Assembly (NCBI GenBank): GCA_947172415.1
Contig: OX359195.1
Coordinates: 6,795,501 to 6,859,500 of the forward strand
DNA from: Chondrosia reniformis
Taxonomy: Eukaryota > Porifera > Demospongiae > Chondrillida > Chondrillidae
DNA length: 64,000 nucleotides
Reading direction: 5' to 3'
This document shows positions 433-52,764 of the stretch, one piece after another (the stretch's first letter is position 1; every line of letters starts with the position of its first letter). The notes below the pieces were generated by a model. That model had not been told where the DNA came from. It searched no databases and was given only the letters and a program-made list of their open reading frames with translations. A program made the position numbers and the translations under genes.

Positions 433-4970
<4,538 letters not shown>

Positions 4971-7215: not shown

Positions 7216-8593
7216 CTAGACTGTAATGTCATACTGAACTCCTAGGGTAGATAAAGCTTGATCTAGAATGTCTGCAAAGAGTTGTGTCTCTGCTAGGGGC
7301 ATCCCCTCACTCTCCCTCTGTCCCCCCTCGATGCACCTCCGCACCTCCTCCGCCTCATACATGAGACCCCAGCTGTGATACAAGTTAAACTTTTCGCCAT
7401 TTATTTCCTCTGGAAGCTCGGGGAAAGACAGTTCTCCTTCTGGTGTGATGAGCTTCACGGGTGACCAGCAAGGATAGGGGATCTTAATCATCCCCTTTGT
7501 ACCAACAATGGTGGCTTCTCGCCCACCCTCAAAACCAATTCCCACTGATATCTGAGCAGTACCGTTCGGATACTTGAGATTCAATGCTGCATATTCATCA
7601 GCTCCTGTTTCCATCAGCTTTCCAACAGTTTGGACTGTTTCCGGCTTAATGCCCCCGAAGGCAAGGGAGACCAGTTGAAGTGGATAGACACCAACATCAC
7701 ACAGCGCCCCTCCTCCTAAGACTGGGTTGTACAATCTTTCAACATTCCAACCATCAGTGTTTGGCTTAAAGGAGAAGTCACAACGAACATATCGCACCTC
7801 GCCAATAGCTCTACTAGACAGGAGCTCTCTCAGTTTGATGATAGCTGGGAAAAACCTGGTCCATACAGCCTACATCAAAGAACATCAGAACATGAGATAT
7901 GTAACAACCACAACCATTTTCTGATCTCTAATGAACCAAATGCACATGCATTAATGATATAGCATCATTGACTCTGAATTTACTCTATCCACTCCAGAGT
8001 ATTAGTTCAATGAAGAATACTCATCTCATAGAATTAATAATACATAACTGACATCATCATTGTTATTGTGTATCTATGCTAACATGCAGTTAGACCATTT
8101 GGAATGTAGACAAACTTCCATTTGAGAAAAAAAACAGTATTAAAACCTTTGAGCCATAGACTATGTTGTACCCATCTCAAACATCTACACCATATCATTA
8201 TGGACAGACACTTACTTCCATCAAGAAGACTCCATTCTCTTCTGCTGCCCTGATCAGTGCTGCCGTTTGCTTGCCACTTAACGTCATGGTCTTTTCGCAC
8301 AGAACATGTTTCTTTCCCTTAATCATCATTAATGCACACTTGTAATGCGCTGAATTGATAGTGTTTACGTATACAACGTCTACTTCGGCATCGCTTGCCA
8401 GCTCTTCGTAGGAACCTACTGCTTTTGGTATGTTGAATTTAGCAGCAAATTCCACAGCGCGCTCAAGACTTCTAGCAGCTACCGCCACCACTCTGTGTTT
8501 GTCCCTCGTGTCCTCTGGCAAGGCGCTTAGGGCAAGACCAAACTCGCGTGCCATGATCCCTGCTCCACAGAACCCCCACTTCAACACAGCCAT
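7216..8593 (-). CDS. DHDH: trans-1,2-dihydrobenzene-1,2-diol dehydrogenase-like oxidoreductase
   Basis: Two exons (8593-8216, 7869-7216) give 343 residues; the human protein has 334. Gfo/Idh/MocA family: an N-terminal Rossmann NAD(P)-binding motif (GFCGAGIMAREFG), then VVAVAARS, GSYEELASD and the catalytic-lysine region VLCEKTMT. The C-terminal alpha/beta domain includes FLMEAVWTRFFPA (spanning the splice junction), GGGALCDVGVYPLQ and GTKGMIKIPYPCW. The family oxidises dihydrodiols of aromatic hydrocarbons, or D-xylose, with NADP+. Unusually, the normally conserved proline after Glu-Lys in the EKP motif is threonine here. Start chosen at MAVLKWGFCG because the Rossmann strand begins at once, as in homologs. 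Confidence 0.93.
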
Positions 8594-8917
8594 TTTGAAA
8601 ACAACAATGACCGTTCATTACGTGACTTTTAAAAATCCCCCTTGAGTTAATGGTGGTGGGTCGAAACAATGCTTCATTGAAAATTAATCAAAAAGTACCA
8701 TTTAAAAGATAAGTGTATTATGCCTTGTAGCTGTAAGGAAAGTATAATCTCGCCTAGAGCAATAGCTCTTAATACGAATGGGAGAGTGGTGAATAAAGTA
8801 TACTTTGCAATTAAATAACATGTACACAATAAACAGTTGCAATCCAATTTCTCACAACTTGACCATAAAAGTTACATACATAGCAATACTGGACTAGTTA
8901 TAGTTAAGCAGATATTG
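8594..8917. other. intergenic, UQCRB 3' / DHDH 5'
   Basis: 324 bp between the UQCRB stop and the DHDH start, both on the minus strand. It must hold the UQCRB 3' UTR and the DHDH promoter. I see no further gene or clear motif. Confidence 0.5.
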
Positions 8918-9706: not shown

Positions 9707-29123
<19,417 letters not shown>

Positions 29124-29921: not shown

Positions 29922-32900
29922 TCAGTCATCAGTAAAGAGTAATTCATTTCTGTACTGTTCTACATCAGCTACATTAACATTTTCATTTAAGTGTACATTT
30001 GTCTCTGATGCCTCATTCTTGACGTAGAATACAGACATTGGAACAGCTGTATCCTCTTGATCTTCGGGTTTCTGATCAGCAATAAATTTCATTATCTTCT
30101 CACAACATGAGATGAATGGCCCCAAGAATACTAAGATCCTTTCCTTGTATTTATTACTCAAACTGTGATGGCTGCAGGAGAGAATAAATAAAATAAAATA
30201 AAATAAAATCTAATCATAACATTCATATTGGAAAATAATGCAGATACCAAATGAATAACAATCTAATACAAATACATATACGAACATTGCCATTCAGCGC
30301 AATTGATTGAGGAGCCTCTTTAAAAAACAGAAATAAATAAGCTACGTAGATTAAATACGTAAATCAAGTTCAGAAGTTACATATAATATAACCTAGGGCA
30401 TAGCAGCCCACAATTCAAAAACAATAGGGCACAAGAAAAAATGAATTAACAGGTAATTTGAAGTCCTTGGCATCATAGTGAGATTGTAAGACTAAGGAAA
30501 CTACATTAAGTACATATGTATACACTTACTATATATACTTTAATATGAGATACAGAGTCATAGGAATAGCATAAATAAAAGGTAGAAGAGCAAAGACTCC
30601 AGCAAGGCCATTGGGGAAATAGGGGTCGCTTGGCTGCAGGATTGCGACAGTTACCAGAAAGAGATCCAACAAAATTAGAGACTCTATAAAGTTAATCCAG
30701 CTCTTTTCATAAGGCTTAGCAATGCAGTGGACTATAAGCATTATTACTTCAAACAATGCCATGGCCAGCTATATAAAACAGCAAAATTCACATACATAAA
30801 TTATAAATATGTGATATTCAGTAAACTGAAGTACAACCAATCAAAAAACTGACCACTCTAGTTGGAGGGAGTAGGAAGGGAATCCATAGGGCAAAAAGTA
30901 TGAAATAGATTCGTCTTGCCAGATCCCACGCAGCGTACCACCTAAACTTGGCTTTTAAACCATCTGACAGGGCATCACTAAAGTGCTTTGTTTTCTAAAA
31001 TGGATAAATATTATACACATAATATGGTACAGGAACTATCAGCACAAAAAGTATAAACATCACCAGATGCAGCATACAAATTTATGTATCTATATGAAAA
31101 CTTACTGAAAACGTCTTTAGTGTGATCACAGTGAGTAGGATCGGGACAGGAATTACAAGAATAACTAATAGTAGAAGTGCGATCACCAAGAACACAACAT
31201 AAGGGGCTTCAAAGCAGGGGAGTCCGGTAAACCGGCTTCTCTGCACATAGACAGAATGAAATATAGCATTATGATTACAGTGATGGCTTTCTATTGAAAT
31301 CAACATGCATTACTGAAACCTACCCATATATTTCCACCGTTCTGCCGATCAGCTACACGAACACAGGTTAACAGGATCACTGTATTGTCAGTGACATATT
31401 TGTAGACAAAGAGTGAAATCAGAGTAATTCCAGCCAAGGTGGAGTGATTAGCAAGACGAGGGATACAGTAGGTACTGAAACGAGACAACATAGTTCAGTG
31501 AATGAATAGTGATGGATGGATGGATGGATGGATGGATGGATGGATGGATGGATGGATGGATGGATGGATGGATGGATGGATGGATGGATGGATGGATGGA
31601 TGGATGGATGGATGGATGGATGGATGGATGGATGGATGGATGGATGGATGGATGGATGGATGGATGGATGGATGGATGGATGGATGGATGGATGGATGGA
31701 TGGATGGACGGTTGGATGATGGTTGATTTGTGAGTGAGCACGAAGATGAATAAATGAGAGACAACACAGAATTGAACCAACCTTCTTACAAAGACGATAA
31801 CTGTGACTGCAGCTATGACAGATGGTATGAAGCCAAACATAGTCATTGTCAGTACTGATACCTCGATACCCATACAAATAGGGAAAGGCAAGCTTGTTCC
31901 CAAAAGGTTGGTAATAACAGTGAACTGAGGAAGACAAACAGATAAATAAATGATCATGCTACATGCAATACATAATGTTACTTCATCTTACAAATTCTGA
32001 GTCAAACTCTAAGAAAGAACTTCCTCTATACACCAAACCAATAACCTGGGTATATACATAATTGCATAATCATTTCAATACACTTAAATTTGATTGGCTT
32101 ATTCAACCTGTGCAAATAGGAGGAATCCTCTTAATTCATTGGGCACTCCAATGTTAAAGTACAAAACAAGAATACAGAATCCAACTGTAGCTATGCCTAT
32201 ATAACAAGAAGAAAAGAGGGAGCTATGTAATTACACAAAAACCTGTTCAGAGGATGATTTCCAGTGATTATTTGCAATTCAAAAAAGAATACATAATAAC
32301 AATTAGGGATTTACATATGCATGTATGCATATATAAATTTAGATAATTCTTACAAATTATAGCAAATAAAATGATTCCTCCAATTGATGTCGCCTCAGGA
32401 CACTGTAAGCACTTCCTTAGGTCCATTGTAATGGCATAACCATTGTCCACGTCACAGGAGCCACAAAGATCACCTCAAGTGGTGGAAAACATTCATACAG
32501 TCACACGCTGCACAAGAGAAAGTGCATCAGAAATGCCCTAACCAACTCTGCCTACAGCACACTGCTTTTCCTGCTGATCGAACTGTACCAGGCAACCAGA
32601 TTGACCCGCAGCAGTGGTGCAATTCAAGTGGAATAACGAGACATAACCAAATGTTATATCCTCAGTATTGTCAGCTATCACAGCCACTATACCTTCCTAA
32701 GAAAATGTAGAAAAGTACAAACAAGAATATATAGAGAAGCACACTCAGCTATATATAAGCTTGTGCTAACTCATTTTTAGGTCTTAAACTACACTTTAAT
32801 CAACTTATGTTTAGCCTATTAAGCCTTTTCTCAGCTTCGTATGACAAATGGTGGCTTAGATAAATGTTACAGACAAGTAAGAGAAGTGTGAGAAACTGAA

Positions 32901-35900
32901 TAGAAGGAGGAAGATGTAGGGCAATGGAAGAGCATATAATAAACTAGATGCTTTTGCTGTGTAACAGCAGCAGAGGGGGTCTAATAATAAACAGAGGGTT
33001 TATTTTTCAGACCAATAGAGGAATACTTACTGGGACATAGAAATATCTGTTGTCACAGCGAACAATCTCATAAAGCTCCTCATTACGACAGACACATTGA
33101 GTTAGAGCAGCATCATATCTGTATCCAGGGTGACACTGTTTGACTTCCAATTTAATAGTTTGAATAATTGGCTAGAGTTGGAAGATAAACCACACATTGT
33201 ACGGCTACATGTATTAGGCAAGATTACTGACCTGAGTAGGAATGCTGAAGGATATGGTGGCATTGACTCTTTCCACGCATGGCTGAGAGGTGATATTAAG
33301 ACACGCCCTCTGAAGTTCATCAGCTAGTTCATCATGTATAGTAAGTTCGTAGAATTGAGATTCTGTCCCTACAAAGCCAGCCTGACCAGTGTATCATAAT
33401 AATAACATATAAATTATCAGCTTCATTCAATGACTATATTACATGAATTACATAGAGACCTGGATATTGCAATGTAATGTCATGACTTTATAGATATTCT
33501 AATGTTCCAATTGCAGACATTTAATTATGACACACAAGAGTAGCATGCAATGTGAGTCAAGTATGGTTTAACTGGTACACTTAGGTGGTTGAATTACAAC
33601 TTAGTCTTCGTCAGCTGTGTAAATCAGAAACAAGTAATAAAAAGCTTCACTTTACCTCTAAATCTTGTGTTTCAGAGTCATCATTGACAACCTCCACTAG
33701 ATAAGCAGAACTGCTGACCTGGTGAAATTCATCAGTGCTATTTAACCTGAATGACACCCTTTCTCCCAGTGCTATATCAGCAGGTTCTATGACATTCTAC
33801 AAGTACGTACAGAACATCTATATTAGTCACACGTAAATGAAGCATCTAAGTATCTCCTTACTTCTCCAACTACAGAGAGGCTTTGGGTATCTGAAGCCAG
33901 GAGCTGTGAGATAGCAACAGAGTCATTGAGTCGCTTGCCTTCAGAATCTCTACAGTCATACAAAATTAACTATATTGTTATTTTATACTTACTCCAAATC
34001 ACCTAATAATGTATATAAAGTCTTCCCCATATGACAGCCATTTTCCAAGGACAGAATAGCTTACATATTATATCTCAATAGTACATGCAGGTAACAGTTG
34101 TTAAACTACAGTGATACATATATTATTATTATTATTATTATTAGAGTGCCCATGCATACAATAAATGTATAAAAAGCAAACCAAAAGTGGATAAGGGGCA
34201 CAGGGCTATACCTGGACATGTATATAATGCTTACAAAAACTTGAATGGTGAGCCAACAAAATTGAAGATGTTGTATGGGATATTATCATTTTCTGAAGAA
34301 TCAACACCAGTAAATCTACAATCTTTGAAGTCCGTGCTAAAAATAGCATCTCCTCCATCAGCAGCTGCATTTCCCTGAAATGTGGCATTAATTATCTGGA
34401 GAACACATTAACATTTAGCAAACCAACTTATATACTCTTAAATGAATAGAATGGCTAGAGATTATAAATTATATATAGTTCAGATACTATGATATGTACA
34501 TGTATGTATATGTACCTACCCAATCAATAGGGGGGAGGTCAACTTGATTCATACTGGGAAGATACTGTAAAAAACATTGACGATTCTGTGAGGGAAAATT
34601 GACATTTAATGCTGATTTTGTGGCATAAATGGCTCCTCCAAGATTTATAGCATTATTCTTCAAAAATACCATCTGAGATGTATTGTTACAAAATATCTGT
34701 CCGTTAGAAAAGGAATTTAAAGCATAAAAACATACAATAAACAAACACTGTATTTATTTAATACTGTAATTATAAGATTACTAGAAAAAGGTCACATTTA
34801 ATGAAAATATTTAATTTACTAACCACTGCTCTATTCAATAATCGAAGTCCTCCTCCATTTATAGCTGTGTTACTGATGAAATCTAAATCTCCTCTAGTCC
34901 TTATAACACCCTGAGATATCTCAATTCCACCACCAAAATTTCCTTCAAACTTCACATTATAAAGTGAGATTACTGATCTGTAACCATATAAAGCTGGAAC
35001 ATCATCCAAGCTACCAATCCTTTGGTTCTCAAGAAAGTTGCTGAACAGAACAGTGAGATAGTGAAGACCGCATTAAACCAATAATTATTAAAATCAACAT
35101 TTATAGTGCAAAATATATACACACGCATACGTTATCCACAATGTGATAACTATATACCCCATGTAAGGTGACTTAGGTCTCACCAATTATTGAGGGATAT
35201 CCTTGCTCCTGACCCTGTAATTGGTCCAAGATACAATGCCGTCATTGCAGTTGCATCAGCATCAGCCATGTTACTCTGGAAATAGCAGTTTTCCAAGTTT
35301 ACTACTTGTCTCACTAGTGTGAAACAACTAAAACCTCCACCAGTACCAGCCCTATTCCTTTTAAATGTAACGTTTTTCATATTAATATTGTTTGGAGAAG
35401 GACTGTCAGGAGCCGATACATCAAACAAGTCTGATCTTCCTGATTGGTAATGGATCCCTCCCCCTAAACAGTTGATAGTCACACATTCATTTTCTTCAAA
35501 AATGCAATCTTCAATATCGAGAACACCGTTTGCAGTTTGATCTGTCAGAGAGTATGCTAAGCCGCCGGCTGAAATTTCTGCACGATTTCCTATAAACTCA
35601 CAGCTAAAAATGCATACACGACTGTCCTCCGCGTTAACTAGTCTTATAGCAATTCCACCTCCGCGACCGAACGGTTGCAACCTCAATGGTAGCGTCTCGT
35701 TAACAAGGTTGGGACGGGCTGTATTGTTATAAAATCTGTTGTTTTCAATATAAAGGCTGACGTTATACCCAAAAACTGTTATCCCACCTGCAGTAGCAGC
35801 ATTAGAATCAAAGAAAAAATTCCGGGTAAATAAGAAGCTGCACTCGGAATTGTTATGAGCTACGTCCAGTTGCGTCAAACTATTAAAACGGAATATATTG

Positions 35901-36526
35901 TTGATTACATACAGAGTTTCTATTTCGCCAAGCAACATGGGAGATGCAGTATTACCCTCAAAGACACAGTTTTCGGTTATAAATTCGGTGGTTTGGGTAG
36001 CAAAGATGTTAGATGCAAAAGGCCCGCACCTTGTAAACGTTATGCTCGTAATCCTTAGGAAGTTACTCTTCGAAAAAAACAGGTTGTCAAATACACATAC
36101 AGTATCGTTAAATGGGAACTTTGAACAAGTTAGGAATGTCCTTGAGACGTTTAACCCACTGATTTGGATCCAGTTTGAACTGTTGAAAGTAATTGCGTAT
36201 TCTAACTGATGTATTCCTGGTAGTAGAATTATTTCTAAGGAAGATACTTCCACCATAAGTTTATTAGCTGTGGAATTGCTTGTTGAAAAGTTTCGCAAAG
36301 CATAGTTAAGAGTTTTGCAGGGATTGTCTTCATTTCCGCACGATTCGTTGTTGCTAGCATTTGCATCCACGTAAACTTTTGAAGAGAAATTGTGCTCCCT
36401 GAATTGCCTACTAAGATTGATATAACTGCCCTTTAATTGATCACATCCTTCAAGAGCCTCAGTAGAAAAAAACAATACTATAGAGGAAACCACGAAAACG
36501 TAGACACTCCTCTTGACTGTCTCCAT
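29922..36526 (-). CDS. beta-helix ectodomain/multipass membrane receptor-like protein, paralog B
   Basis: Eighteen exons from 36526 to 29922 sum to 3,894 nt, or 1,297 residues. A signal peptide ([20 protein letters not shown]) is followed by a parallel beta-helix entry motif (VYVDAN ... NPCKTLNYA). A long ectodomain follows with recurring glycine-turn rungs ([35 protein letters not shown]) and many N-x-S/T sites. A Cys-rich juxtamembrane region (CHPGYRY ... CVCRNEE ... GDLCGSC; about 760-880) precedes eight or so hydrophobic segments to about residue 1214. Signatures there are [33 protein letters not shown] and [10 protein letters not shown]. The cytoplasmic tail is acidic and unlike the tails of A and C. 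Exon 1 is one 1.3-kb block where paralog C has an intron. Function is unknown to me. Confidence 0.85.
31511..31707 (+). repeat. (GGAT)n microsatellite in an intron of paralog B
   Basis: About 49 uninterrupted GGAT units (ATCC on the transcribed sense strand), lying in the intron between the exons ending near 31782 and starting near 31474. All frames are open (Met-Asp-Gly-Trp or Ile-His-Pro-Ser), but this is not coding. Confidence 0.97.
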
Positions 36527-37111
36527 TTTTGACCATACCCACCCACTCGCGTGATATAACCATGTACTTAACCGGTCATACAAATCACATTATGACAACA
36601 CACACTTGCTAGTATAATACATGTACTAGTCAAGAAGGCCAACATCCATTTATACGAATCAATTAATAAATTGGTCATTTAAATCTATACAGTAGATCTA
36701 TATAATGCTAGTGTATAACTATATATATCACCCCCGCTTCTTTTCTTTAACACCCTAAAAGTGCCTTTTTACTCTATCATATCCTAGTAAACAAATCACT
36801 AATCTTATTTATGATATGTATTTAAAGCACAAATCCCTTAGCTAATTATCTATCACGGAATTTTTATAGAGCATGCACGTCCCCACCTCTCACCCACCCT
36901 ATATACGTAGATATACCTAGCTGTCAATTCCAGAAGAGCAATAAACTTCCAAGTACTATTTATCATGACTTTCCTTTGTAATGTGACTTATATACAAAAC
37001 CTGAACTGGTTGGGCCATCCTTATTAATCTTACTCTTTGTATATATATGGCATGTCACAATAATAAACAATCATTATGTACGTATGGTGCCTTGCTGAAA
37101 TAAACATGTAA
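36527..37111. other. intergenic, paralog B promoter / SRCR 3' end
   Basis: 585 bp of AT-rich sequence between the stop of the SRCR gene and the start of paralog B, both minus strand. It should contain the paralog B promoter. No specific motif is assigned. Confidence 0.5.
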
Positions 37112-40100
37112 TTATATATAGTCATTGCCTAGTGATGGATCAAATTTTGGATTTTCATATGACATGTCTTGATCAATGTGAGACCTTGGAAACCAGTCTG
37201 GCTCAGATAAAGTTTTTTGTTTTCTTCTAATCAACACACACAGAATTAGACATGTCATCACCACAAGAAGAAGTAGACAGATGATTCCAACTGTTATTCC
37301 TACTACTACTGGTAGTGGAGGAGTACTAGGTGAGGAAATTTCTACTATATAATAGAGAAATTAATAAAAATAATATAAACTTCAAAGGGACCAGCTACAC
37401 ATAGGGTTTGTTGTCATTTTGATCAACTAACTGTTGTAACAAATTATTCCAACATCTTGACTGTGATTGCAACTTCCAGGGTAAACCTCAAAAGGACAAT
37501 CAACAAGCCTTTTCTCATTTCCATGGCATTTGGTAGAATGAATATTAATGGGTAAGTCCAAATTTGAGATATTATAGCTATATAAGAAATTATTCAAGGT
37601 GACAAACAGATCATTATAGCATGGACATGCATATATTTTTATATATAATTAATACCTGTGGCTACACTTTAATAATGTACTGTATATATACGTACATATA
37701 AGGATGACCCTTAAGGGGGTAGTATTGGCTAAAGGGTGAATATCTCCTTTTGCAAAGTCCTTCTCATATATATGTGAATTGAATGTAATGTATTCAGCTA
37801 CGTATATACATTGTGATTGCTTAATGAATGATAGCTAGCTAAACCATACCATAGAGAAGAATTTACTTGTTGTGTTAGCATGGATACGACATGTGCTGAA
37901 CATGACTTTTTTAAATTAGTTTTGATTTTTACAGCAACTTAATTTCCCATTTAGTTGCAGGTTTGAAACATGTACTGTATATACATACGTATATGTGCTC
38001 ACAGAGTAGACAGAACTTATAAAAAATACATACTTGGAATTGGTTATAATATTTGCCCTCAAGCCAGCCTCAGGAAATTTCAACTGTCTGCATATAACTT
38101 TTGCCTCAGTTAGATGAAAATTTGTGCTGCACACAGTTCCCCATCTGTTGTAAAGATATATCTCAAGTCGTCCAGAGCTGTCTGATGGGCCTCCTGTTAA
38201 TCTAACAGTCCCTTCTTCTAGTGGGGGAGCATCACCTGATCATGAGTAAAGTAGTACGTATATATTAAAGTAAAGTCATATCATAATACTGGAAATGCAT
38301 GGCCCAGTGGAGAAGAAGAGAAGTAGAAAACTCTTGTATCCTCATCCAAAATTTCTTTTATTAACACAACCTGTCCTGGTTGTTTTACTTCTGTTTAATT
38401 CCTTTAGTTTACTACTATTTTCCATGCTCTAGCTCTTTCTGCTCTCTAAATAATTTACTTCTCATACAGCTATAAGCAATTTCTTTCCATAAGTATATTT
38501 ATATAAAAGAACAATATTAACTTAAAGAAGTAATGCATGTATAGCTTACTGCATTTAATGGCTACATCTTTATAGCAAACATCTTCCAATACAGGTTTGT
38601 AATGACAATCTAACAACTTTTCTTCTGAACCATGACAATTCAAAACTCTAAATACACCATTCTGGAAGTCACCAAATCTTAAAAAAAAACATAAACGTTA
38701 TGCATATACGTACGTATGTGCATCTATATAATGCCCAATAAAGATGTTTTTTGTATGTGAGTGTAAACATGTGCAACTTGACATTAGATTAATCTATATA
38801 TGGTAGTTTTGTACTTCCTTTCACTGAGTGCCTTAATAGTAGCCCATCTTGGCTAGTGGCCATCCCCAGTTTAAATAAGATACTCAAACCCATATTCATA
38901 GTTTTTATAGTGACTCATGGGCCCTAACTTGGCCTTGTACTTTTTTGTATGTGTCACTTTAATATATTATTTATTATTATTATATATGTACATATACACT
39001 TTATATGAATGCATATAAAGTACCTTCCATCCTCATAAACCTCTTCAGCTCCTACGTAGCCAATCTGTCTGCATGCAACATCAGCACCAGAGGAGGCTTT
39101 GAAGTTATTGGAGCATATGCCTCTCCATTCCCCATCAACAAAGATCTCAAGCCTTCCCATGGATGTATTTGTTGTATTGCCGTTGTTCAATCTAAGATTT
39201 CCATTTCTTTCAATTCCATCAGTACCTTTTTAATAAGGGGGATATACTAGCAAAAATACCATGCAATTGTATACATAGCATGTTTACATAGCATGTTTAA
39301 AGGAAAAACAATCATTTAAGACAATACAGTAAACCTCAATTAAAATACATTATAAAACATGTCCAATGAGTTTTAGAAATGTTGATGCATTTTATATTTA
39401 CCCTATAGCCTAGCATCATACATAAAGTCATATATTAGTAAATAATGTACATTTAGTGCTATATATGCAACTCTATCAAACGAACAGACATCAATTACAA
39501 CGTACTACATGTATGTATACAATGACACACAATTTAAATTGGCTATGTGTATTTGTCTGCAAATGCTGTAATACGTACCAAGTGATAGCTATGCAATTCT
39601 TACCACATTGCAGACATCAATTACAACGTACTACATGTATGTATACAATGACACACAATTTAAATTGGCTATGTGTATTTGTCTGCAAATGCTGTAATAC
39701 GTACCAAGTGATAGCTATGCAATTCTTACCACATTGCACTCCAATTTGGTTGAACACACATGAGTCATCCATAATGCTATGTTTACACTGAAAAAGGTGG
39801 CTTTCATTTCCAAGACACTTTATGTTGGTTATTGAGGCAGTATTAAGAATAGAACCATAGCTACATACGTATATATATATGTACATATACACAAACATGC
39901 AGGTTAATATATTGTAACCTGCATTGTATATATAGAGAGATTTAAAATTTTATATAGTAACTTACTAAGAATTCTTTTTAAATCCAATGGCATGTGTGTA
40001 ACCTAACTGCCTACAGGCCACATCTGCCTCCTTCTTCTCAAATCCTCCATCGCAGAGTGGAATAAATTTTCCTTTTTCAATAGTTATGACTAATTGTCCA

Positions 40101-43100
40101 CTTGCTCCACTCCCCTCAAATAGAGCCACACTCCCCCTAGCCGGCACTGTAGTACTTTCAGCTGATTAAAGCAAAGGCCACAATAACATGCATAATATAC
40201 TTGTATCTTAATTACACATATAAAAATATACATACGTATATGCCTCCATCTGATTCAGTTAATTAGTTAAGTCCATGCATTGTCATGCTACGTATATAAT
40301 TGGTCTAAATTAATTATTATTATTATGTCCATACGTATATATGAGCAATAAATGCAGTTGTTTAATTAGCCTATACAAAATAAGCCTCATATATATATAT
40401 ATATATTTCTGCTGTAGGTTTGCATGTGCATACTCACAGCATTCAACAATCAAGTTATGATGTTTCGTACATGATGTAAATGTGTCGTTTTTCAAGTCAC
40501 ACTCAAGAATGCTATTCTCACCGCCTTTGCATATGGCTTCCGTGACATGCCTCAAACCATCATGAGTCCCCCTATATAGTACGTACATGCATGAATAATC
40601 AATACACCATTTTCTTACATGCCCTATATATCTACTTTAGAGTGAAGTCCTATAAGGAACTAAACCAATAACTTTGGATGAGGATACAAGAATTTTCTCC
40701 TATACTTCTTCTCTTCTTCTCCACTGGCATATACGTATATGTATAGTGCTATAACTTTGACAATTGATATTAAATGCAGTCTTGATTAAAAGCAACTATC
40801 TTAAGCCACAAATCCTCTTGTACTATGATTTGTTCCTTTTTTCTCTATCATTTCATAACATACAGTAGTTAAAAAGCTTTTTGTATGTAGGGTTTTAGAA
40901 TAACAGAAAAATGTCATGCTTTTTGAAAGAAATATACTGCACTTCAGTTTATGTACATACCTATGGACTAGATTCAAAGTCCTCCATCCTAACTGTCGAC
41001 ATACAACATTTGCAACAGAACTAGCATCATTATCTGGTACACATATATTTCCCCATGTTTCATTCAAGTATATCTGAACAATGTCATCATCTATAATTCT
41101 GATGTCACCCAGAGATGGAGTGTTCTCCAGTTTACACAACTCAGAACTGGGCTCTCTGTTAAGCATATAATCCATATCTATTTTATCTGTATAGAATAAT
41201 GTAAATCGTTTAATATATTTTATGTATATGCAGCATATATAGATCAAAGAGTCGTTGTATATAATATTTTAGAAAACTCCTATATAAACATATGTCAAAT
41301 GGTCTCCTCAAATAACTAACAATTCTTTCCCAAATACACAAATCTAATATAATAGTCCCAACTAATATGGGGCAATGATATCAGAGTTTACACTCACTAC
41401 ATGTAAGAAAAATGGAATTAGTGCAATCTTTAACTTCCATAAGGTCTTCCAAAGTTGATAGACAGTCAATAATACAGACATCAAGTACATTACACTCTGT
41501 GTTGTTTAATCTCCACATTGGACTACATATTAAAAAATATCTAAATATATGCATATGACATGTACGTATAGTATAAATATCACTACACTACTGTGACTAA
41601 TTAGTTTGCCATGGTTACTTCTTCATAGGAATAGGAAATGGGTTGGGTCTCTGATTATCAGCTTGTTTTGTTGAATGAAATCACCACTAGTGTGAATGGC
41701 AACTATTATAACTATTAATATATTAATTATTATTATATATAAGCATGGTGCCTTCTACTATGTATGTTTGACTTGACATAGCTATTTATGTGTTGTTATA
41801 TATCTTTTTGCTTATAATTATGTACACTCGCATGTGTTGGTGCTACATTGGACCAGTATCGGTCCTAATGCCCTTGGGCATGGTGCACCTTAATCATTGA
41901 ATTGAATTGAATATATACGTACATATGATGGGAGACATGAATGCAATAAAATAAGGATTTCTTCTAACTGCATCGAACTTATCTTTTGGATGGTTTATCC
42001 TTCGACCTTTTGAGCATCTAGAGACATCACTAAAGAAGACCCTCAGGGTCGAAAAGTCTGACTAAAGTTTAAGAACAAAGCTGTGTCTCTAGACGCTCAA
42101 AAGGTTGAATAATGAACCATCCAAAAGAGAAACATGAATGATAAAGAAACATTGCTGTAGCAATAGTAGCTCAATATAACAGAGCACTAATGGTCCTATG
42201 GTCATAACCAGCTGTCCTGGGTTTGATTCTGAGTAATCGCTCTTTTGTATTTTGCTGGACCTTCTCTACTTCATGGACAAATGATTATTATAATCTGGTG
42301 GTTACCTATTTCCAATGTTACTTTAGTACTTTACCTGCTAGTCCTGTTAATGGTGTCAAGTGATAGCATGTCAGTATATCCTAGCTGTCTACAAGCCACA
42401 GCGTAAAAGTCATCAGGTTTAGCCTCTATGTGATCTCCAAGATAAACTCCACCCCATTTGCCATTATAAAATATCTGTAGTGCTCCTTCAGATGGGTATT
42501 CCCCTCCCACGAGCCTTACTTGACCAGAGTAGGGCTGTGGTCTGTAATCACCTGATGCATAACATATATATATACTTACTAAAGTATAATATATTTTACT
42601 ATATATACATATATATGTATTATTAAATGCTGCGAAAGTCAAGGATGTTAATATACCACTAACTAAAAACAATTAGTGTGATGTTAACTATAGTATTATA
42701 TTGTTTTCTCTTACTACATTGAACTTCCACTGTTTCATGAGGTGCACATGTATAATTCACCAGACGACAATCTAGGATGTGACTTTCGTTACCATGGTAG
42801 CATTCAAAAGCTGGTCCAACTATTCCACTATTCATTCCAAACCTGTGGTTTAATTTGTGCATAATTAAGCAGCCTACATTTTCATATACATTATGTTTAT
42901 ATTATTAATGTCACCATAGTACATAGTATAAATTAACATTTTGTAATTGCCCTGATACCTTGAAATTTTGCTAATATGTGGATCAGGTTTGACTTTGTAA
43001 CCTCTTATAATGCTCTGATCAGTTTTATAAAGATGAGCTAGATAGCCTAGGCCCAGTTGCCTACAAATGACGTTCCCTGTTTTATTATCAATATGATCAT

Positions 43101-43424
43101 CACATAGGTTAAACCAATCCAAATCTTGGGAATCATATCCTTCAGGTGGATAATAGTATACTTCAACTCGACCACTAAACTTTCCAGATTCAAAACCTGA
43201 AAGTCGCAGATCACCCAATTGCTGGCTGAAGCCTATGAGTTGGATCAATATATATGTACACTGTTAACTTTATAATATATATATACACATATAATACTCT
43301 GTACACGCTGTTTGACTGTCTGTATGCAGTGTATATACAGTATATAATCCTCACATTGTTCACAAATCCATAATGGTGATAGGAGAAACAAGATACAATA
43401 CTTGTCTAAGCTGCAATCCTTCAT
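37112..43424 (-). CDS. six-domain SRCR (scavenger receptor cysteine-rich) single-pass membrane receptor
   Basis: Fourteen exons from 43424 to 37112 sum to 2,409 nt, or 802 residues. A signal peptide (MKDCSLDKYCILFLL) is followed by six SRCR domains, each usually encoded by two exons split after the C-R-Q-L-G motif. Examples are GNVICRQLGLGY, AVACRQLGY, NVVCRQLGW, ADVACRQLGY, ADVACRQIGY and AKVICRQLKF. Each second half has C-x-G-x-E-x-x-L-x-x-C (CYHGNESHILDC, CLGNESHLFQC). A transmembrane helix (VVVGITVGIICLLLLVVMT) and a short basic-then-polar tail with SYENPKFDPS and a C-terminal DYI end the protein. SRCR receptors bind microbial and self ligands; sponges have many. The start could be 33 bases earlier (43457), but the signal peptide is best at 43424. 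It is divergent from paralog C. Confidence 0.9.
38295..38355 (+). repeat. dispersed repeat family 1 fragment
   Basis: GGCCCAGTGGAGAAGAAGAG ... TGTATCCTCATCCAAAA in an intron of the SRCR gene. Confidence 0.5.
39485..39736. repeat. 126-bp direct tandem duplication at an SRCR exon end
   Basis: Two adjacent, essentially identical 126-bp copies (39485-39610 and 39611-39736) beginning CAGACATCAATTACAACGTA and ending CTTACCACATTG. On the minus strand each copy contains the last bases of an SRCR exon (CAATGTG) and its splice donor GTAAG. The real exon (about 39860-39730) uses the copy adjoining it. Confidence 0.9.
40640..40730 (-). repeat. dispersed repeat family 1, inverted fragment
   Basis: AGGAACTAAACCAATAACTT, TTGGATGAGGATACAAGA and CTTCTCTTCTTCTCCACTGG are the reverse complement of the family's 3' half. 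It lies in an SRCR-gene intron. Confidence 0.5.
41980..42131. mobile_element. MITE-like inverted-repeat element
   Basis: About 47-bp imperfect terminal inverted repeats: left arm ATCTTTTGGATGGTTTATCC ... TTTTGAGCATCTAGAGACA, right arm its near reverse complement ending ATGAACCATCCAAAAGAG. A 55-bp middle contains a small palindrome (GACCCTCAGGGTC). Related single arms occur near 6,480-6,570 and 49,810-49,870. It is in an SRCR-gene intron. Confidence 0.6.
42160..42290 (+). mobile_element. tRNA-derived SINE-like sequence
   Basis: TAGCTCAATATAACAGAGC resembles a tRNA A box with D-arm (42167-42185). GGTTTGATTCT at about 42220-42230 resembles a B box at the expected spacing. The T stem and acceptor stem do not pair, so this is a decayed tRNA-derived repeat rather than a functional tRNA. 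Confidence 0.4.
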
Positions 43425-43694
43425 TTCTCCCCTCAATTGTTTGGTATATATCTCCAACTTGGAAGCTGCACAGTTACTCTACTAAAACAATTTAATAAAT
43501 ATGGGCTGTCTTGTGATATCTGAATTGGCTAGTACATTAGGCCAGATTAAGAATGTACAAACAAACATTGCATTAGACAAGCCATTTGAATTAAGGTCTC
43601 ATTAAAAGGCTTTTTATCACTTGATATAATCATGGATGTATTTTGTGTGTGTGCAACCATTTCGTCATTAGACATTCGACCACGCCCACACAAT
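43425..43694. promoter_or_regulatory. divergent promoter region SRCR receptor / paralog C
   Basis: 270 bp between the start codons of the SRCR gene (-) and paralog C (+). Both are surface-protein genes with signal peptides. A CCACGCCCAC stretch lies just before the paralog C ATG and could be a GC/CACCC-type site. Shared regulation is inferred from the head-to-head arrangement. Confidence 0.55.
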
Positions 43695-46600
43695 ATGGCT
43701 ACTATCATAATCTCGACGGTTTTTTTGATCATCTCTCTTGCTTTCTCTTCCTCCCCTGACAAAATATTAGTGGATCCAGCTTATGGAAACGATACAGAAG
43801 AATGTCTACGAAATCGTTCTGTCCCTTGTAGAACCTTGAACTACGCCTACTACAGAAAGTCACTAAACGACTCAGATCCGGTCTTCTCCACGACTCCAGA
43901 CACCAGTTCGGTTCAGAATCGCTCTAAAAATACTGAATTCCTCTTGAAACCTGGAAAATATGAAGTATCTCAACCTTTGGTGATCAGCGAATCAGATAAC
44001 CTCATTTTCAGTGCTGAATCCGAAAATGTCACTATCCGCTGTCCGGATCTTAGTAACAGGACTTTTGGACCAGATAATTATACGTTCTACGACATATCTG
44101 TTCATAACTCCAGCAACTGCACCTTTAAAGGGATAACTTTCGAGAGCTGTGGCCCTCGGAATTCGGCTTTGTTTGCTATAAACATTGAAGGATTTAATAT
44201 CATAAATTGCACATTTCGGTAAGTTTTTGTTACTCTTAGTCCTATAACCTATTAACTATTGTCCTAACTAACGTGACAGTAAAATATATAGTATAGCGAA
44301 TAAATAATATAAACAATTTACCAGTTCCAGTTTCTTCATTGCTTCGGCTTTTGTTTCTTAATTATTTCAGTAACAACACTGGATCAAGCCTTCAAATAAG
44401 GCATTGCAAAGACATCCTTGTAGATAGCACCATGTTTTGTGATAACTTCAATACGAGAACATTCAATGAAGATAGTGAGATTATCGATATTGACGCTGCA
44501 TTTGGTCGAGCCCTCACTGGTGGAGGAATGACTGTTATTAATAGGAGATCTTCCGGAGTAAATATCAAAGTAAAAAACTGCCGTTTTATAAACAACAGTG
44601 CAAACAATGACTCCATTTCCTCTGCCACACCTATTCTTCTGCGAAAGTATGGCCATGGAGGTGGATTGTTAATAAGGTGGATTAAGGTTTCTGAATCAAA
44701 TGTTATGATTGAAGACTCATTATTTCAAGACAATCGCGCACAAGTTGACGGTGCAGGGATTTTCATATCACTTTCCAATACTAGCATTAATAACAACCTA
44801 ACCATACGGAATACCACAATTGAAAACAATAATGTTGAAGATTCAGGAGGTGGCGGGGTTAGTTTGAATTCGTTTCAAGTTACTCACTCCAATAACTTTA
44901 GGATTGAAGATTGCATCTTTGCTAATAATTCCGCCAGTGCCGGTGGGGCATTTAGTCTAATTTTATACCAAAGAGATGCAGAAATGGAGGATCAGTTGAT
45001 TTTCATAAACTGTTCCTTCATACGTAACACTGCCGTCAATGATGGAACAGCAGTTGGCTTGTTTTCACTTTTGCATGTAGATGAAGTTGGATTTCCAGTA
45101 GAATTTGAAAACTGGTAGGTCACATGACTTTCATATGGATATCACATGACTATCACATGTATTTTGAATCAATTTTACTTTCAAATCCTTTGTAGTACAT
45201 TTGATGACAATCTCTCAGAGGATATCAATAGTGATACCAGTGCCTTAGCGGCTTTTAGGTACGCCTAGCCTACGAACTTATTAGTTTTTTCTGTACACAA
45301 CTTAAGCAATTTGGAATTAAGTCATGTACAGGCTTAATGTGGCTTAATGTAAGATATCTAAATCACTCAACTCTAATGGTGTACCAATTAGAGTAAACTT
45401 TCAAATGAAAGTACAGCATTTATTATTAAAGCTTTACCTTTAAATGGCATAGCCAAACTGGCTCTTTTTCCAAAGGAGCACGGCTAGTCAGTAATACTAC
45501 CTACCATTCTTAGCTCCTACGTATGTTCCACTGCTAGAATGATTATATAGGTCTACCTACCACTCTTAGCTCTCATGTTCCACTGCTAGAATGATTCAGT
45601 GTTGCAGTCAATCCCTTTCTTCTTGCTTCAGATTTCCGATTACTCTAAGAGGCACAAACTACTTTAGACGTAACGTAGGTGGGGGAATTACTCTATTAAA
45701 CACACAAATGGATGTATATGGAGTGGTAATTCTAGATAGCAATACTGCGGACTTTGGCGGTGGGCTTGCCATGGACGACAGGTGTCTGGTTAGTTGACAC
45801 TAAGAGCTGGAAGTGATAGAAGAATATGTATATTGTCAACCTTATCCCACTTGTTGCATTGTATCATTGTAACTACGTATAATCCATCCATGGCTATTAA
45901 CTATCATTTTCTTTGGTTAGGACATGCATACTCTATCATGATATAATTATGCGTGATTGTTTTGTCTCCATATAAACAAAAAAGATATCTTGAAATTCTT
46001 ATTTGTTTACTAATTACGTATGCGAGTCTTTCACTCTAACGTTTACCCTTTGACCACATACGTAAGTACATACATATATGTGGTAGTGTATAGTTGTTCA
46101 GTGTCGATTGTGTTGTTCTGTAGTTGAACCTTCATCCTGAATCACAGATAGACTTCACTAACAACCGTGTCAACGACTCTGGTGGTGGTATCTATGTTGA
46201 TTTTCCACCAATCAGATTTGTGATTGAGTTCTTCAATCGCCTCTGCTTTATTCAATATGTACCAGATAATGAACCAATGGACAGACCTCCGTCTGATTGG
46301 GTTCGTTACCATGCACATGTTATTAATGGAGCTAAATATTGCTCCTTATAAATATGAATATCCTCTATTTTAAACTGAATAAAATGTATATCATTTGTAT
46401 GTGTGTGTATATGTACATATGCATCAATGTATACATCATCCAAGATGTTTTCCCTAAGTAATTTAGTCTAAAAAACAGTCTATCCTTATATTGATATGTC
46501 AACCAGGATTTTATAGGAAAATATTTCAGAAATATATGTATCTGGCCTAAAACGTTTAAGTAATTGTTCACTTATGTAGCCTTTGTGCATGTACACATTA

Positions 46601-49600
46601 TGTAATTCACAAGCCCTATGGTGAGTCATATACAAGTAGAATACTGTGTAATCTGCAACTGTAAAGAGTGGCTTGTTTTTAAACCATTTCCACTTTTTGT
46701 TTCAAGCCTATTTAGTATTATGTTGTATGAGTATCAATCTATACTGTATAGAGCTTCCTTACATCAGTTTCATTCTAGTTTGGACTGTGTTTTCAAAATG
46801 TCTACTTTATGTAATGCAATTGGAAGAGGTGTTTTTTCAGTTTAATGTTTTCCTTCTGTTTTTAGCTGTATATATGCTTTCACATTCCAATTTTACAGTC
46901 TGCTAAAGTGAGGTTTATAAACAACACTGCTCGACTAAGTGGAGGGGCCATCTTTGCATCTGATCTCCATGGATGCCACTGGTTTGGTGATGTAGAGGAT
47001 GAACTGACTGAAGAGAGTATATTTACTCAAAACCCTCCAATTGCAGCTAATGGTTCTTGGCCATTTGTTTACAAGTAAGAATAGCTACATAATATACATA
47101 CGTACATACTATTGAAGTGTCTTAATCCTCTGTGTGAAGGAGTGTTGCTAATTGCTCTTTTTTCTTTATCATAATATGCATTTACTCCTTTTACATTTGT
47201 ATCTACTGATGACATTCATTTATCCATTTCATCAGTTTTTGATTTGTGCTGAATATAAAGATAAATTGTGAAGTTTCATTTTGAGTACTTAAATGTGATG
47301 CAGTATACAGTAATGAAGTCTATAAATCTATAAAGCTTGATGGCTTCTATGGATCCATATTTTGATGTATTAGAAATAATTACTTAACTGGAGGTAATGC
47401 GACTGGAGGAAATATTATGAATAAGACACTTGGAACTGCACCTTTGCAACTGAAAGTCACCCCAGAAGTAGGTTTTAGCTACAAAATATGATGAAATCAC
47501 ACCCTTTTATTGTGCAACCACTGCCCCCCTGCTTAAGGGATATGATAATTAATCCCTAACACTGCCAGATGTATTACAATGAGTACAGCAATTTGTGCAG
47601 AATCCAATATTTTGACTTACATATTGCATACAGTATCTCTCTTGTTTATTTATCATGTTTGCGTGGACCTACCTACGTAGTTTACTACAGTCCAACCTGG
47701 TGAACGGGTATCAATAGAACTGCATGCTCTGGATCAGCTGAACAACTCCAGGGAAGCTGTGTGGTCGGTCACAAGACCGGGGGAGGACACGGTAAGCTAG
47801 GGACAAGTAGGGGCAGACTAGGGGGAGGACATGGTAAGCTAGGGACAAGTAGGGGCAGACTAGGGGAAGGACACGGTAAGCTAGGGACAAGTAGGGGCAG
47901 ACCGGGGGAGGACATGGTAAGCTAGGGACAAGTAGGGGCAGACCGGGGGAGGACACGGTAAGCTAGAGACAAGACCCAGAAACTTGTTAGGGGGTTCTAA
48001 GTTATACAGGACTGTAACAGAGAAAGGGTATGAGATGATTTGGCTAGTAATTTGCCAAAACTTTGAAATAGGCCAGTATATACAAACTCAAACATGGAGG
48101 TGCTTCAACACTCAGAGCACCCCTTAAATCCACCACTGACATAAATAGCAATAATGAGATAATAGAATTTGTAAAATAGTACATTTGGTTCTTTATTCCT
48201 CACTTTTAGTTCCTTGGAGCTCTTGCAGCTGCTCCTGATAAGTATATTTATACTGTACCCTCTTTGAAAACTTTGGGAGAAACCAATTCTTCTGGAACAT
48301 TTAAGAAGACGTTGACTTTCTCACTTCTTAGGACACTGGTAGGTTTCATAAAAAACTGTATAGGATAAAATGGCTGCCAATCCTTCATGGACCCTTCATG
48401 CGCGTGTGATATAGAATATAGGGTTCACATGTATTTCAATTGAGACTTCCTTAGTTACCAATCAACCACTCACCTTCCCTTAGTAACCAAACCACTAAAT
48501 TGGTTGGTGAATTCATAGACTATCTAAACTACATACAGTAGTTTAGATAGTCTATGTTATGTTGAATCAGACTACCTTACTCAATTGTCTCAAATACAAA
48601 GTTCCATTGTATGAGTTGCTAGAGTATCTAACAGATCCATCACCAAGGTGGGATGGCTTAACTGATGCATATCTCACTGATCGTTTGTAGGCTGATAGTG
48701 TGAATGTAGTACTAACAGTTGATGGTAGTTGTCACCCTGGATATGTCTTACCAGATGTGAATAGTACCTGCCAAGTAGACACAGAGAAGGAAGACATTTT
48801 AAGAGCATCAGCAGCAGGCAGATACATATACATCAGGGTGAGTACTGAATAGGTTCAAAGGACTGTCTGGTTAAGGCACTCCACTGGTTTGTGTGGTGTA
48901 GCTTGTGTAATTAGGTAATAATTGGGTCATATGTATAGTGTATACGATGAAATAAGTAGTATTGACACATTTCTGTGTGCACAGGCTATGATATATCATC
49001 ATGCATCACTGTAGGGGTAATACCCTGTGATTATTCACCTCTTGTCGCTGAATATGTGTATACATACCGCCTTTAAGTTAATGTTGAGTGCATCATGTGA
49101 TCCTTAATTGGCATGCATACGTATGTTTGATAACCTGGAAATTAGACAATGTGTATATATTTACATCTAATATCAATTTCTGTAAGAGAGTATATACATT
49201 AAATCATTACTAACGTTTCGGCTGCATACTGCAGCCTTCCTCAGAGTACAATTAAGAAAATGAAAAGACTGCATAACATAAACACCTGCACTAATCATTC
49301 ACTGTCATTCATCAGTTGTAAACATTAATTCAGGTCTTGAACTCTAATTCAGTTTGATTGTTGACTCTGAATGAGGCACTACCACCAACTGTCAATCTCC
49401 ACACCCTGGTCTCTGTTCATTAGTTTGCTGTGGTTCCTTAAGGAGATATGAAGGGACTCCTTGATCCTGAGAATGTTGGTATTCCTTGCATGATCAGGAT
49501 TTTTTGGGGGTTCAAGCGAAAGAATCGATATGTTCCTATAAATAGTCACCCGAAATTATCCTCTCAAGTGTATATACATTGTTTACATTAATATAAGTGG

Positions 49601-52600
49601 CAGCCATTTTTGTTCTCTTCAGGAGGGAACCTATGCTTGGATGACTAAAGACATGGAACTTGAGATTATTATTATTTTACCTAGCTATGCGAACTGCACG
49701 AGAGAGGGGGGGTTAGCTGGTTGCCTGTTTGAGTTTGATAAAGAAGACAACCAGTGTATGGATAATCGTGAGGGTTAGTTGAAATTCTTTAGAAAGAGCA
49801 TTATTGTATCTTTGAGATGCTTTATCTTTAGTCTTTGGAGCGTCTAGAGGCGTAGTTTGTTTGTGAGACTTGGATGTTTACACCCCAGGGGTCTCTTCAG
49901 CGACCGAATTATTGCAATTACGTAGTTTAATGTTTATAAAGATTTTGCTAATAAACAGTATCTCTGTACTTAATATTTTCACAAATTTTGTTTAACTTCT
50001 AAGTGATGTATTCATAATTTGAACATTTACAGTCAGATTATATGTGTTTAGAATTTTCATTATTCATGTGGTTAAACACTTGTGGTTTGGTTAATTTTCA
50101 GATTGTTCATGCTCCCAATAGAGGCTAGCTTGACTTCATCTTCTCCATTCATTAGGTATCTTATGTGGTCGTTGTAAAAATGACAGCGGAGTACAGCTGG
50201 ATTTGCAGGCTTGTTCCAATGATTGTATTCTTGGGCAGGTTCTCTTTCCTATTTTTTGTGTCCTTGTTATAGTCTTCTCCTTCTTGGGTATGTTCTTCAA
50301 TGTCCACCTACCCAATGAACTTCAAGGGTTTCTCTTCTATGCACAGGTACAGTGATATAACTTATATATACATACATCGTCTTTTTATATACGTAATACT
50401 TATATATGAATACAAGCATATTATATAAGTGTGAGTGACAGGTTTTGGACAAGTGTTAATAGAAGTTCTTGCTGATGAAGACTCTTGATTTTAAAGATAT
50501 TTAATAACTTTTATAGTCTAGTATTTCATTTTCAAATAAGTTATAGTATCTCAAATTTCATTTTCTAATTAAACCTTTGGGGGGGTATTCACATGAACTA
50601 CAGAGAGTTGATTGAGTATATAACTTTCTTTTTTGTCCTTTCTAGTCATTGGGGCCATACACGAACATGCTATGTACATACATCTATTAATGTCTACATT
50701 ACCTAACAATGTACGTATGTAGGTGATTGGTCTCGTTTTCAGACAATTTAGTAGCATTGAGCCAACAAAAACAAATGTAAGTTTGACCTTTTAACACTTC
50801 CTGTGTTGTGTAATGTTGTCTTCCATTCCTAGGGATTTCGGTTTGTGGAATTCATTGCAAACCTCCTTGGGTTTAGCCTTCCCCTTCCTCTGTGTGTGGC
50901 TCCTGGGGTATGGGCTCACTGGATCATATTGATGTCATATGTTCCTCCTCTATTGGCGCTCATTACAGTCATTATTTATTCACTATGGTAAGTCGAGTGT
51001 TATTTAACTTATCTCTAGTACTGTAGCAGCAGCTGCTGTATAACTACACTTGTCACTCCAAAGGTGTCTGTTGTTGTAGAGGTCACATACATGGCAGTCT
51101 AGTAGTTACAGGGTATTAGGATGTGAACAATCACCTCTCTAGGACTACTTTGTGCTTAAAATAGTTACTCTATGTTAAACCAGAAAATGTACAGTCAATC
51201 TTTTTAACTTTATAGCTAGATGGATGACTGGGTTATCGAATATGAATATATGAACATGTATAAGAATGTCATGTATATATTTGGCTTCCTTTAATTGATA
51301 GCTCATCTTTTCCATAGTGCCTCCTATTCGAGTATTCTTGGCAAGAGGTCATCTTTGGGTGGCATTGCCCTAATTCTCCTATTTGTTTTCAAGTATGTCG
51401 CTGACACCAGTTTTGTGCTTGTTAGCTGTGTAGACACTCCTGATGTGAGTCTGTTATGATTCATTAAATAACTCTTAAAATATTTAGTCTCCTTGGTTAC
51501 CTTGTAGGGTTACCGATTCTTCTATGATGGAGAGACGCAGTGCACTAGTGCTCAGTTCCTTCCCTTCTTTATTATTAGCATTCTGCTTTTGATTGGTGTG
51601 TTCCTTACTCCCATTTTTGTGGGACTAGTACCATACAAATTCTATGGGGTGAGTCAATATACATATAGATTGGGTGTACACCTACTATATTGGATCTGAT
51701 TTTTCTTCTATTCAGCAATTTAGTGTGTTTTCTGATGTGGTTACCAAGGGGCTGAGGTCAAAGTACAGATGGTGGGGTGGATGGGACCTGGAGAGGCGAC
51801 TCATATTCATAGTGGTATCCTTCCTTGGACTTGTTGTAAGACCCTCCCTTGTTCTGGTAAGCCAGCCCAAATCTGAGGAACACCCTCTAATTAGCCTATA
51901 ATGTGAACTGAATGTGTACATAATACTTCTCTTTGCTTTAAAATGTCTTTGAAAATTTTAATATTTAAGTTTATGTATAAATTGAACATTTAAGTCACAT
52001 GTCTAACCTTACATACCATTTTCAATCTGTTTCTTTAGTTTTTTCAATCCCTCACTGCATTGCTTGTGCTGACCGTGCATTGCTTCACAAAGCCTTATTC
52101 CGAACGTTTCATCAACATCATTGAGGCATTGATTCTTTTAAACCTTCTCCTAGTGACGGGGCTCTTTATTGATCCTGATAATCAGGTTCCCGTTAACTTT
52201 AGCTTGTTCATGGTGATGCTTCCATTTGTGTATTTTGTACTTTACCTTGCATGGAGGCTTTTCCAATTTATATAGTAAGTGTACACTGGTATGTGTATTT
52301 TAACTTTATGAGAAATAAACATTTACAGTGCATTTTATATTTAGATAATTTGCTCTTTGTTTCATGGTATAGTAAAAGGATAACCAAGAAAACCCCTCCG
52401 AGAATAAGAGACCTTTTAACCAGACTAACAGGCTTCCTTCAAAATTTTGGTAGAAAGAAACCGGAAACCACTGAAGAGGAAGTAAGGGAAAACACTTATC
52501 ACCTCTATAGAGAAGGTAAGTCAGTAATCATTTCATAATAGATGTAAAGCAACCGCTTGTTGTGTTAAGATAAGTATACACACGCATGTATGTTATTGCG

Positions 52601-52764
52601 TAATCACTGTAGAAACCAAAGGCAGACCTAAGTCAGAGGAGAGAGCAGTTGACCGACCTTCAGGGGACACAGTGAAGACTTCTGACAGTGATCGTCCTGC
52701 TCCCAGCACAGATGAATCTGATCAGCAGTTCACCCAGCTTCGATTGCCTGATTATGATAACTGA
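43695..52764 (+). CDS. beta-helix ectodomain/multipass membrane receptor-like protein, paralog C
   Basis: Twenty exons from 43695 to 52764 sum to 3,813 nt, or 1,270 residues. A signal peptide (MATIIISTVFLIISLAF) is followed by the entry motif ILVDPAYGND ... VPCRTLNYAYY. The ectodomain has beta-helix rungs (TGGGMTVIN, GGGLLIRW, GAGIFISL, GGGGVSLNS, GGAFSLIL, GGGITLLN, GGGLAMD, GGGIYVD, GGAIFAS) and many N-glycosylation sites. A Cys-rich juxtamembrane region (CHPGYVLP ... GILCGRC; about 735-850) comes next. Eight or so hydrophobic segments follow, with LPNELQGFLFYAQ, KYVADTS, KYRWWGGWDLERR and CFTKPYSERF. The polar, acidic tail (about 1173-1270) ends LRLPDYDN. It is colinear with B but has two extra introns in the ectodomain. 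I chose the ATG at 43695 because the signal peptide starts there. Function is unknown. Confidence 0.87.
47779..47966 (+). repeat. 42-bp minisatellite containing repeated splice donors
   Basis: About 4.5 copies of a 42-bp unit with GGGGGAGGACACGGTAAGCT and AGGGACAAGTAGGGGCAGAC. The first unit carries the last bases and donor (GACACG/GTAAGC) of a paralog C exon (47681-47791). Each later unit repeats the same donor sequence inside the intron. Confidence 0.9.
48514..48556. repeat. perfect 19-bp hairpin in a paralog C intron
   Basis: CATAGACTATCTAAACTAC at 48514-48532 and its exact reverse complement at 48538-48556, separated by five bases. It may be a remnant of an inverted-repeat element. Confidence 0.8.
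48865..49255 (+). repeat. dispersed repeat family 3, copy in paralog C intron
   Basis: This stretch, from TTAAGGCACTCCACTGG through ATTATTCACCTCTTGTCGCT to TAACGTTTCGGCTG, recurs near 59,388-59,700 with small indels. Both copies have same-order follow-on homology around TTGTTTACATTAAT (49,580 and 59,758). Confidence 0.8.

Follow-up and report, generated by a model that had tools for sequence, protein, structure and literature searches.

Genes A, B and C of the sponge Chondrosia reniformis belong to one large animal family, and at a probability of about 0.5 we consider their products to be membrane glycoproteins that act as adhesion or sensing receptors at the cell surface, with a beta-helix mounted on a polytopic membrane module. 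B, C and the C-terminal part of A lie in the window, the whole 64,000-nucleotide stretch that was analyzed (G000:C7:6795501-6859500, from a genome of 117 Mb in 15 contigs). Wnt matches scoring over the family cut-off mark the genome as that of an animal. In the proposed mechanism, a presumably cleaved signal peptide would precede a stiff right-handed parallel beta-helix of the Pmp type, ~600 residues long and carrying putative N-glycans and loops. A short linker and a collar rich in Cys, with likely disulphides, would carry the helix, and the polytopic membrane module with its polar cytoplasmic tail would anchor it. Exposed on the surface, the helix and its loops may bind an extracellular partner, such as a glycan or protein of the matrix, of a cell surface or of a microbe, and this binding could be passed via the collar to the membrane module, which might signal as a receptor or channel. 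The find is a new architecture on a known fold. No description of this architecture was found in the literature surveyed, mostly outside subscription papers; a table in PMC3386278 has an 18-member sequence cluster, 2/18 with a pectin-lyase-like domain, that may or may not correspond to the family in the window. With at least 50 loci, which either place a Pmp-type helix on a multipass module or retain the module behind a short ectodomain, the family is a tangible and testable candidate for the means by which such an animal perceives or attaches to its environment.

Gene models were generated first with a small splice-aware dynamic program and then by hand-building with the paralogs in view. The stop codons of the complete B and C models fall at exactly positions 29922 and 52764, and all introns in both are GT-AG, with one B donor shifted by one base and one C acceptor shifted 10 bases upstream. 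The automatic model of B has 17 exons (exon 3 starts at 34696, exon 15 is cut early and exon 16 is skipped), and those of C drop several membrane exons. For gene A, an automatic model that misjoins membrane exons around 3180-4260 places the 5´ part, consisting of the hydrophobic N terminus and helix exons, upstream of the window. One B intron contains an ATGG tandem repeat of ~200 bases at about 31510-31710.

Table 1. Positions in the window of the three family members, their parts and the neighboring SRCR-domain gene.
Feature	Positions	Strand	Description
Gene A, C-terminal part (collar end, membrane module, tail)	433..4970	+	10 exons, 524 aa; open frame; profile match 3.3e-11
Gene B	29922..36526	-	18 exons, 1285 aa; open spliced model, GT-AG introns
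Gene B, exons 1-9	36526-35184, 35040-34824, 34672-34520, 34395-34235, 33949-33862, 33796-33656, 33381-33232, 33171-33031, 32696-32543	-	
Gene B, exons 10-18	32473-32354, 32196-32108, 32045-31992, 31924-31782, 31474-31324, 31240-31106, 30994-30857, 30768-30530, 30162-29922	-	
B exon 1	35184..36526	-	Hydrophobic N terminus, PCKTLNYA entry motif, first beta-helix part; 448 aa contiguous frame
B LCGxC collar end and membrane module, exons 10-17	30530..32473	-	Hydrophobic segments; intronless-relative profile match 1.1e-20
SRCR-domain gene, between B and C, outside the family	37112..43260	-	Pfam SRCR
Gene C	43695..52764	+	20 exons, 1270 aa; open spliced model
Gene C, exons 1-10	43695-44218, 44371-45114, 45196-45258, 45632-45788, 46124-46300, 46899-47074, 47374-47467, 47681-47791, 48210-48338, 48691-48837	+	
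Gene C, exons 11-20	49623-49773, 50156-50346, 50723-50776, 50833-50987, 51318-51444, 51508-51648, 51716-51856, 52039-52274, 52373-52515, 52613-52764	+	
C hydrophobic N terminus, PCRTLNYA entry motif, beta-helix ectodomain, exons 1-7	43695..47467	+	Ectodomain profile (six intronless relatives) 2.3e-67
C Cys-rich collar CHPGY ... LCGRC, exons 10 to start of 12	48691..50200	+	Read in model
C polytopic membrane module, exons 12-18	50156..52274	+	8 consensus peaks; profile match 8.5e-23

The complete open models of B and C have the domain order given in the original prediction: a hydrophobic N terminus (the signal peptide itself being predicted), the entry motif, a Gly/Asn-rich ectodomain, CHPGY, LCGxC, consecutive membrane segments and, at the end, a polar tail. 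The same order had been claimed for A, which has the collar end, the membrane module and upstream helix exons; PC-x-TLNYA is missing from its first exon, and the collar has CPPGQ in place of CHPGY. Intron positions and phases had also been said to agree among the genes. By order and phase, 16/17 of the B introns have a partner in C (10 share the alignment column and 6 lie at most 8 columns apart; 3/19 C introns have no B partner), and 9/9 introns in the C-terminal part of A have one in B (5 in a shared column, 4 at most 11 columns apart), in a comparison of exons picked partly by hand with the paralogs in view. B and C are 29.4% identical in the helix and 37.2% in the membrane part, and all three genes are anciently diverged.

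Single-exon relatives elsewhere in the genome provide the strongest evidence for this architecture, since they are independent of splicing. Frames of 1355 aa on contig C4 and 1279 aa on C11 each begin with a hydrophobic N terminus and continue without interruption into the tail, and the same domain order recurs in other single-exon genes, 1286-1385 aa long, on C14, C2 and C5; for a 1209-aa frame on C9, the N-terminal part is in a separate frame. Such members should clone easily. A profile of the membrane part, derived from 17 intronless members, matched A, B, C, D (a further paralog, E 8.4e-24) and the C11 gene with E-values between 3.3e-11 and 8.4e-24. The corresponding ectodomain profile, derived from six intronless members and searched against B, C, D and the C11 gene, matched all four between 5.5e-35 (D) and 2.3e-67, with 3.9e-48 for B. 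Shuffled controls, 1000 for each profile, gave no listed match with the membrane profile and a single one, at E 2.1, with the ectodomain profile. The domain arrangement is more than chance.

The ectodomain of B and C is predicted to be a beta-helix of the Pmp type, a fold class assigned by a structural model together with a repeat HMM. Structure prediction had been proposed as a check, and the AlphaFold2 model of B exon 1 adopts a right-handed parallel beta-helix fold, with nearly half of the model at very low confidence. Its structural matches include an adhesin, phage tailspikes and glycan-active enzymes, at sequence identities of only 7-16%. Chlam_PMP (PF02415, cut-off 20.6 bits) scored 31.1 bits in B exon 1 and 32.6 bits in whole C; on whole B it reached 15.5 bits, under the cut-off. 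The FxxN motif was clearly enriched over shuffles in B and C, and the looser turn GG[AG][ILVF] strongly so; strict GGA[ILV] occurs once in each, and 64 and 51 of 1000 shuffles had as many. N-glycosylation sequons were likewise enriched over shuffles. A PF02415 search of the whole genome gave no match at E 0.001, although B and C carry the repeat; we suppose that the 19-position model is too short for such a search. DUF7630 scored 12.5 bits at the collar of C and at best 19.6 bits (in L039), both under the cut-off of 27. Together, models, profiles and structural matches uphold the central claim, that a bacterial-type beta-helix is fused to a polytopic membrane domain in a protein with paralogs.

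In Chlamydia and trichomonads, beta-helices of the Pmp type are known adhesins. Passages of PMC10715098 describe chlamydial Pmps as autotransporters whose motifs are predicted to be buried and whose loops are predicted to be exposed. Like B and C, these proteins have FxxN and GGA-like turn motifs in a beta-helix, with the HMM passing in C and B exon 1. Unlike them, the window proteins have a Cys collar followed by an alpha-helical polytopic module, and their turns are mostly looser GGG/GGA variants; the C terminus of B and C is a run of hydrophobic segments, not an autotransporter beta-barrel, and no autotransporter family appeared in a Pfam scan of whole B and C. Trichomonad Pmp-like proteins, 48 of them in T. 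vaginalis, resemble the window proteins in being eukaryotic, in their Pmp-type repeat region and in membrane anchoring, and they raise adhesion when expressed, according to sections of PMC6701047. The same sections give them a C-terminal transmembrane domain with an ATPITK motif, and NPx[YWF] tails in the aligned T. vaginalis examples (PMC6701047), whereas eight or nine membrane segments are present in the window proteins, and the tails of B and C, read by eye from the models, contain no NPx[YWF]. Adhesion by the helix may draw support from the trichomonad and chlamydial parallels, by analogy only.

The expectation of about eight membrane segments agrees with eight consensus hydrophobic peaks in an alignment of 21 modules; GPCR-like receptors have seven membrane helices. 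A ninth, weaker crossing around a conserved FFYQ motif would leave the Arg/Lys-rich loops and the tail cytoplasmic, and we favor nine crossings because the basic loops and tail then fall in the cytoplasm. P, N, R and D positions are invariant or nearly so. Pfam scans of eight proteins found no family at cut-off in the module, the Pmp repeat being the sole family over cut-off, and no receptor family or PF06011 (Flc/Pkd2 TRP-like) up to E 1. Over the genome, PF06011 gave no match up to E 10, with controls equally silent. NCBIfam, run on four proteins, had nothing over cut-off except the Pmp repeat in one of the four, and no solved structure matched the module profile; single sequence matches to solved structures at E 0.81 and E 6.8 were taken as chance. 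Sub-threshold Pfam scores for DUF2834 (17.9 bits against a cut-off of 22.9), DUF2614 (15.8 against 21), SecE (15 against 22.7) and Tmemb_9 (12.9 against 28.6), and weaker ones for SRTM1 and DUF6040, were taken as chance or composition. Pattern matches to the module in viral contigs, and in bacterial or archaeal contigs, were set aside, as tblastn found no relatives there. The term receptor thus rests on the architecture, since the module matches no known receptor or channel family by sequence, and the data point to a common membrane module that reaches no Pfam family here. We presume that fungal Flc/Pkd2 TRP-like and protist multipass proteins are similarly laid out, with an extracellular domain before a polytopic module and a similar motif pattern near the C-terminal half.

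Counting paralogs in this genome, a further check that had been suggested, showed the family to be widespread. Searches gave 30 rows with the C module, 35 with L038 (35/76 candidates scored), 36 with L039 (36/82 scored) and 47 with an L033 protein. Merging 66 rows and dropping repeats left at least 50 module-bearing places on ten contigs, a lower bound because gene A and a second C11 gene are not among them; some of the genes form tandem arrays. The proposal of a local three-gene system was therefore rejected, the family being genome-wide. Intronless frames >1000 aa occur at 13/50 places (11 read; C5:5619230 and C5:5624027 unread; L045 interrupted), and 5/50 are intron-bearing. The other 32/50 have frames <=770 aa, with a separate upstream helix exon possible for the unread ones; some of these places probably are pseudogenes, as they have stops inside the frames. 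Six short members (L033, L034, L035, L037, L047, L048) carry the same membrane module as the window proteins, preceded by 63-173 residues with 0-1 FxxN and no GG[AG][ILVF] turn. An apparently intron-bearing member with the module was also seen on C3 (L036:3175-4290, profile match 1.5e-16). In a module tree of 26 rows, the A, B, C, D and C11 genes, which carry introns, fall into a single clade (100/99). Three changes are required between "helix" and "short" labels, so neither is one group; details of the tree are unsure, since A and Q1373 sit on long branches and less than half of the C11 row is filled.

These short forms bear on an alternative that we regard as unlikely but realistic, in which the membrane module is the functional core (e.g. 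an ion channel or mechanosensor) and the beta-helix a tether or stalk lost in several lineages. That many members keep the module with only 63-173 residues upstream suggests that the helix is dispensable for some family functions, and the number of places with frames <=770 aa, the three label changes and the invariant residues of the module all fit such a core. So does its DNA: blocks of ~30-170 codons within the module are 95-100% identical between otherwise diverged paralogs (G622 with G572 and G583; J504 with J512; H638 with H645), compared with about 35-70% in most other windows. Such blocks, noted for the L033, L034, L037 and L047 ORFs, suggest repeated gene conversion in the membrane module; the fifth pair, M727/M710, is uninformative, being alike nearly throughout, and between B and D or B and C there was no near-identical block (best 30-codon window 77%). 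Against a channel core, no Pfam channel family scored above cut-off, no solved structure matched by sequence and the fungal TRP family search was empty, though its controls were silent too. With somewhat greater doubt, we also entertain an undescribed class of animal surface receptor, in which a new-fold signaling or channel module would be repeatedly refitted with a long beta-helix or short ectodomains, gene conversion would keep the core uniform and the proteins would sense microbes or neighboring cells.

A dedicated self/non-self or microbial recognition system, the role originally proposed, seems to us improbable. A multigene family with tandem arrays would suit such a role, as would a fold common to a bacterial adhesin and phage tailspikes and an ectodomain that diverges faster than the membrane part, both between B and C and between B and D (identity 44.8% in the helix vs 61.3% in the module). 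Faster change outside the membrane is common, however, and no proof of recognition, and B and C are single, anciently diverged genes in no recent array. Moreover, gene F (L039) differs from five C14 genes at the same rate in helix and membrane parts (dN 0.27-0.28 and 0.29). Those five (K1-K5; L040-L042, G000:C14:5363001-5421000), near-identical single-exon genes with the full-length beta-helix, were compared with one another, K4 without its first residues; they belong to a subfamily other than that of B and C, and L045, a relative of theirs, is apparently interrupted: its 1037-aa frame stops inside the membrane module, and another piece comes after it. In the K1-K5 helix, dS was 0.038-0.083, dN 0.010-0.029 and dN/dS 0.26-0.43; in the membrane part, which is more uniform than the helix at silent sites, dS was 0.003-0.027 and dN 0.004-0.013. 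dN was below dS in the helix of 10/10 pairs and in the membrane part of 9/10, where the remaining pair differs by 1 silent change and 4 others. In 10/10 pairs the helix had a lower dN/dS than the membrane part. K1-K5 thus give no sign of diversifying selection on the helix, though a gene-wide average may hide a few selected sites.

The SRCR gene that the family members were said to surround does sit between B and C, an adjacency that could be read in favor of recognition. Four of its seven pieces score above the Pfam cut-off and two below (24.8 and 23.7 vs 26.1 bits); the last piece (membrane and tail) has no SRCR match. This neighbor carries little weight, because SRCR domains abound in this genome: a first look gave 893 candidates, and 150/150 of those scored pass the cut-off. 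Such abundance is in keeping with a sponge; an SRCR expansion in sponges is described in PMC4772301. The tail of the SRCR gene (37112-37360) contains NPKF, a possible NPxF endocytic signal of a kind absent from B and C. The observations in the original prediction are confirmed apart from the two gene A details; its interpretation is partly supported, and a local recognition system is not established.

It is very unlikely that the proteins are membrane-anchored enzymes that cleave or modify glycans: ranks 1-9 of the structural matches are polysaccharide lyases, epimerases or polygalacturonases, but the fold is shared in the same list by non-enzymes (the adhesin PfbA at rank 10, and tailspikes), identities are low throughout and the Pmp repeat is the only named family over cut-off. 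We reject the notion that separate ectodomain and membrane genes were wrongly spliced together, despite the hand-chosen exon ends in B and C and the membrane exons dropped by automatic models, because several single-exon relatives carry the whole order in one frame, and the automatic model of paralog D has a similar exon order.

Other features of the window were also noted. Five of ten ORF pieces given to Pfam (four at 54.1-55.0, 59.9 and 6.8 kb, one at 21.9 kb) had no match up to E 0.01. A GFO/IDH/MocA oxidoreductase gene lies at 7219-8614, and upstream of A is a look-alike judged by eye (L009:2981-4383), so that A is flanked by two such genes. A long pyrimidine-rich minisatellite at 16200-17530, open in several frames (GC skew -0.744 over 16001-18000), is adjoined by an LRR-coding piece at 17557-17949, and an acyl-CoA oxidase piece is found at 62518-62988 (ACOX_C_alpha1, 72.9 bits).
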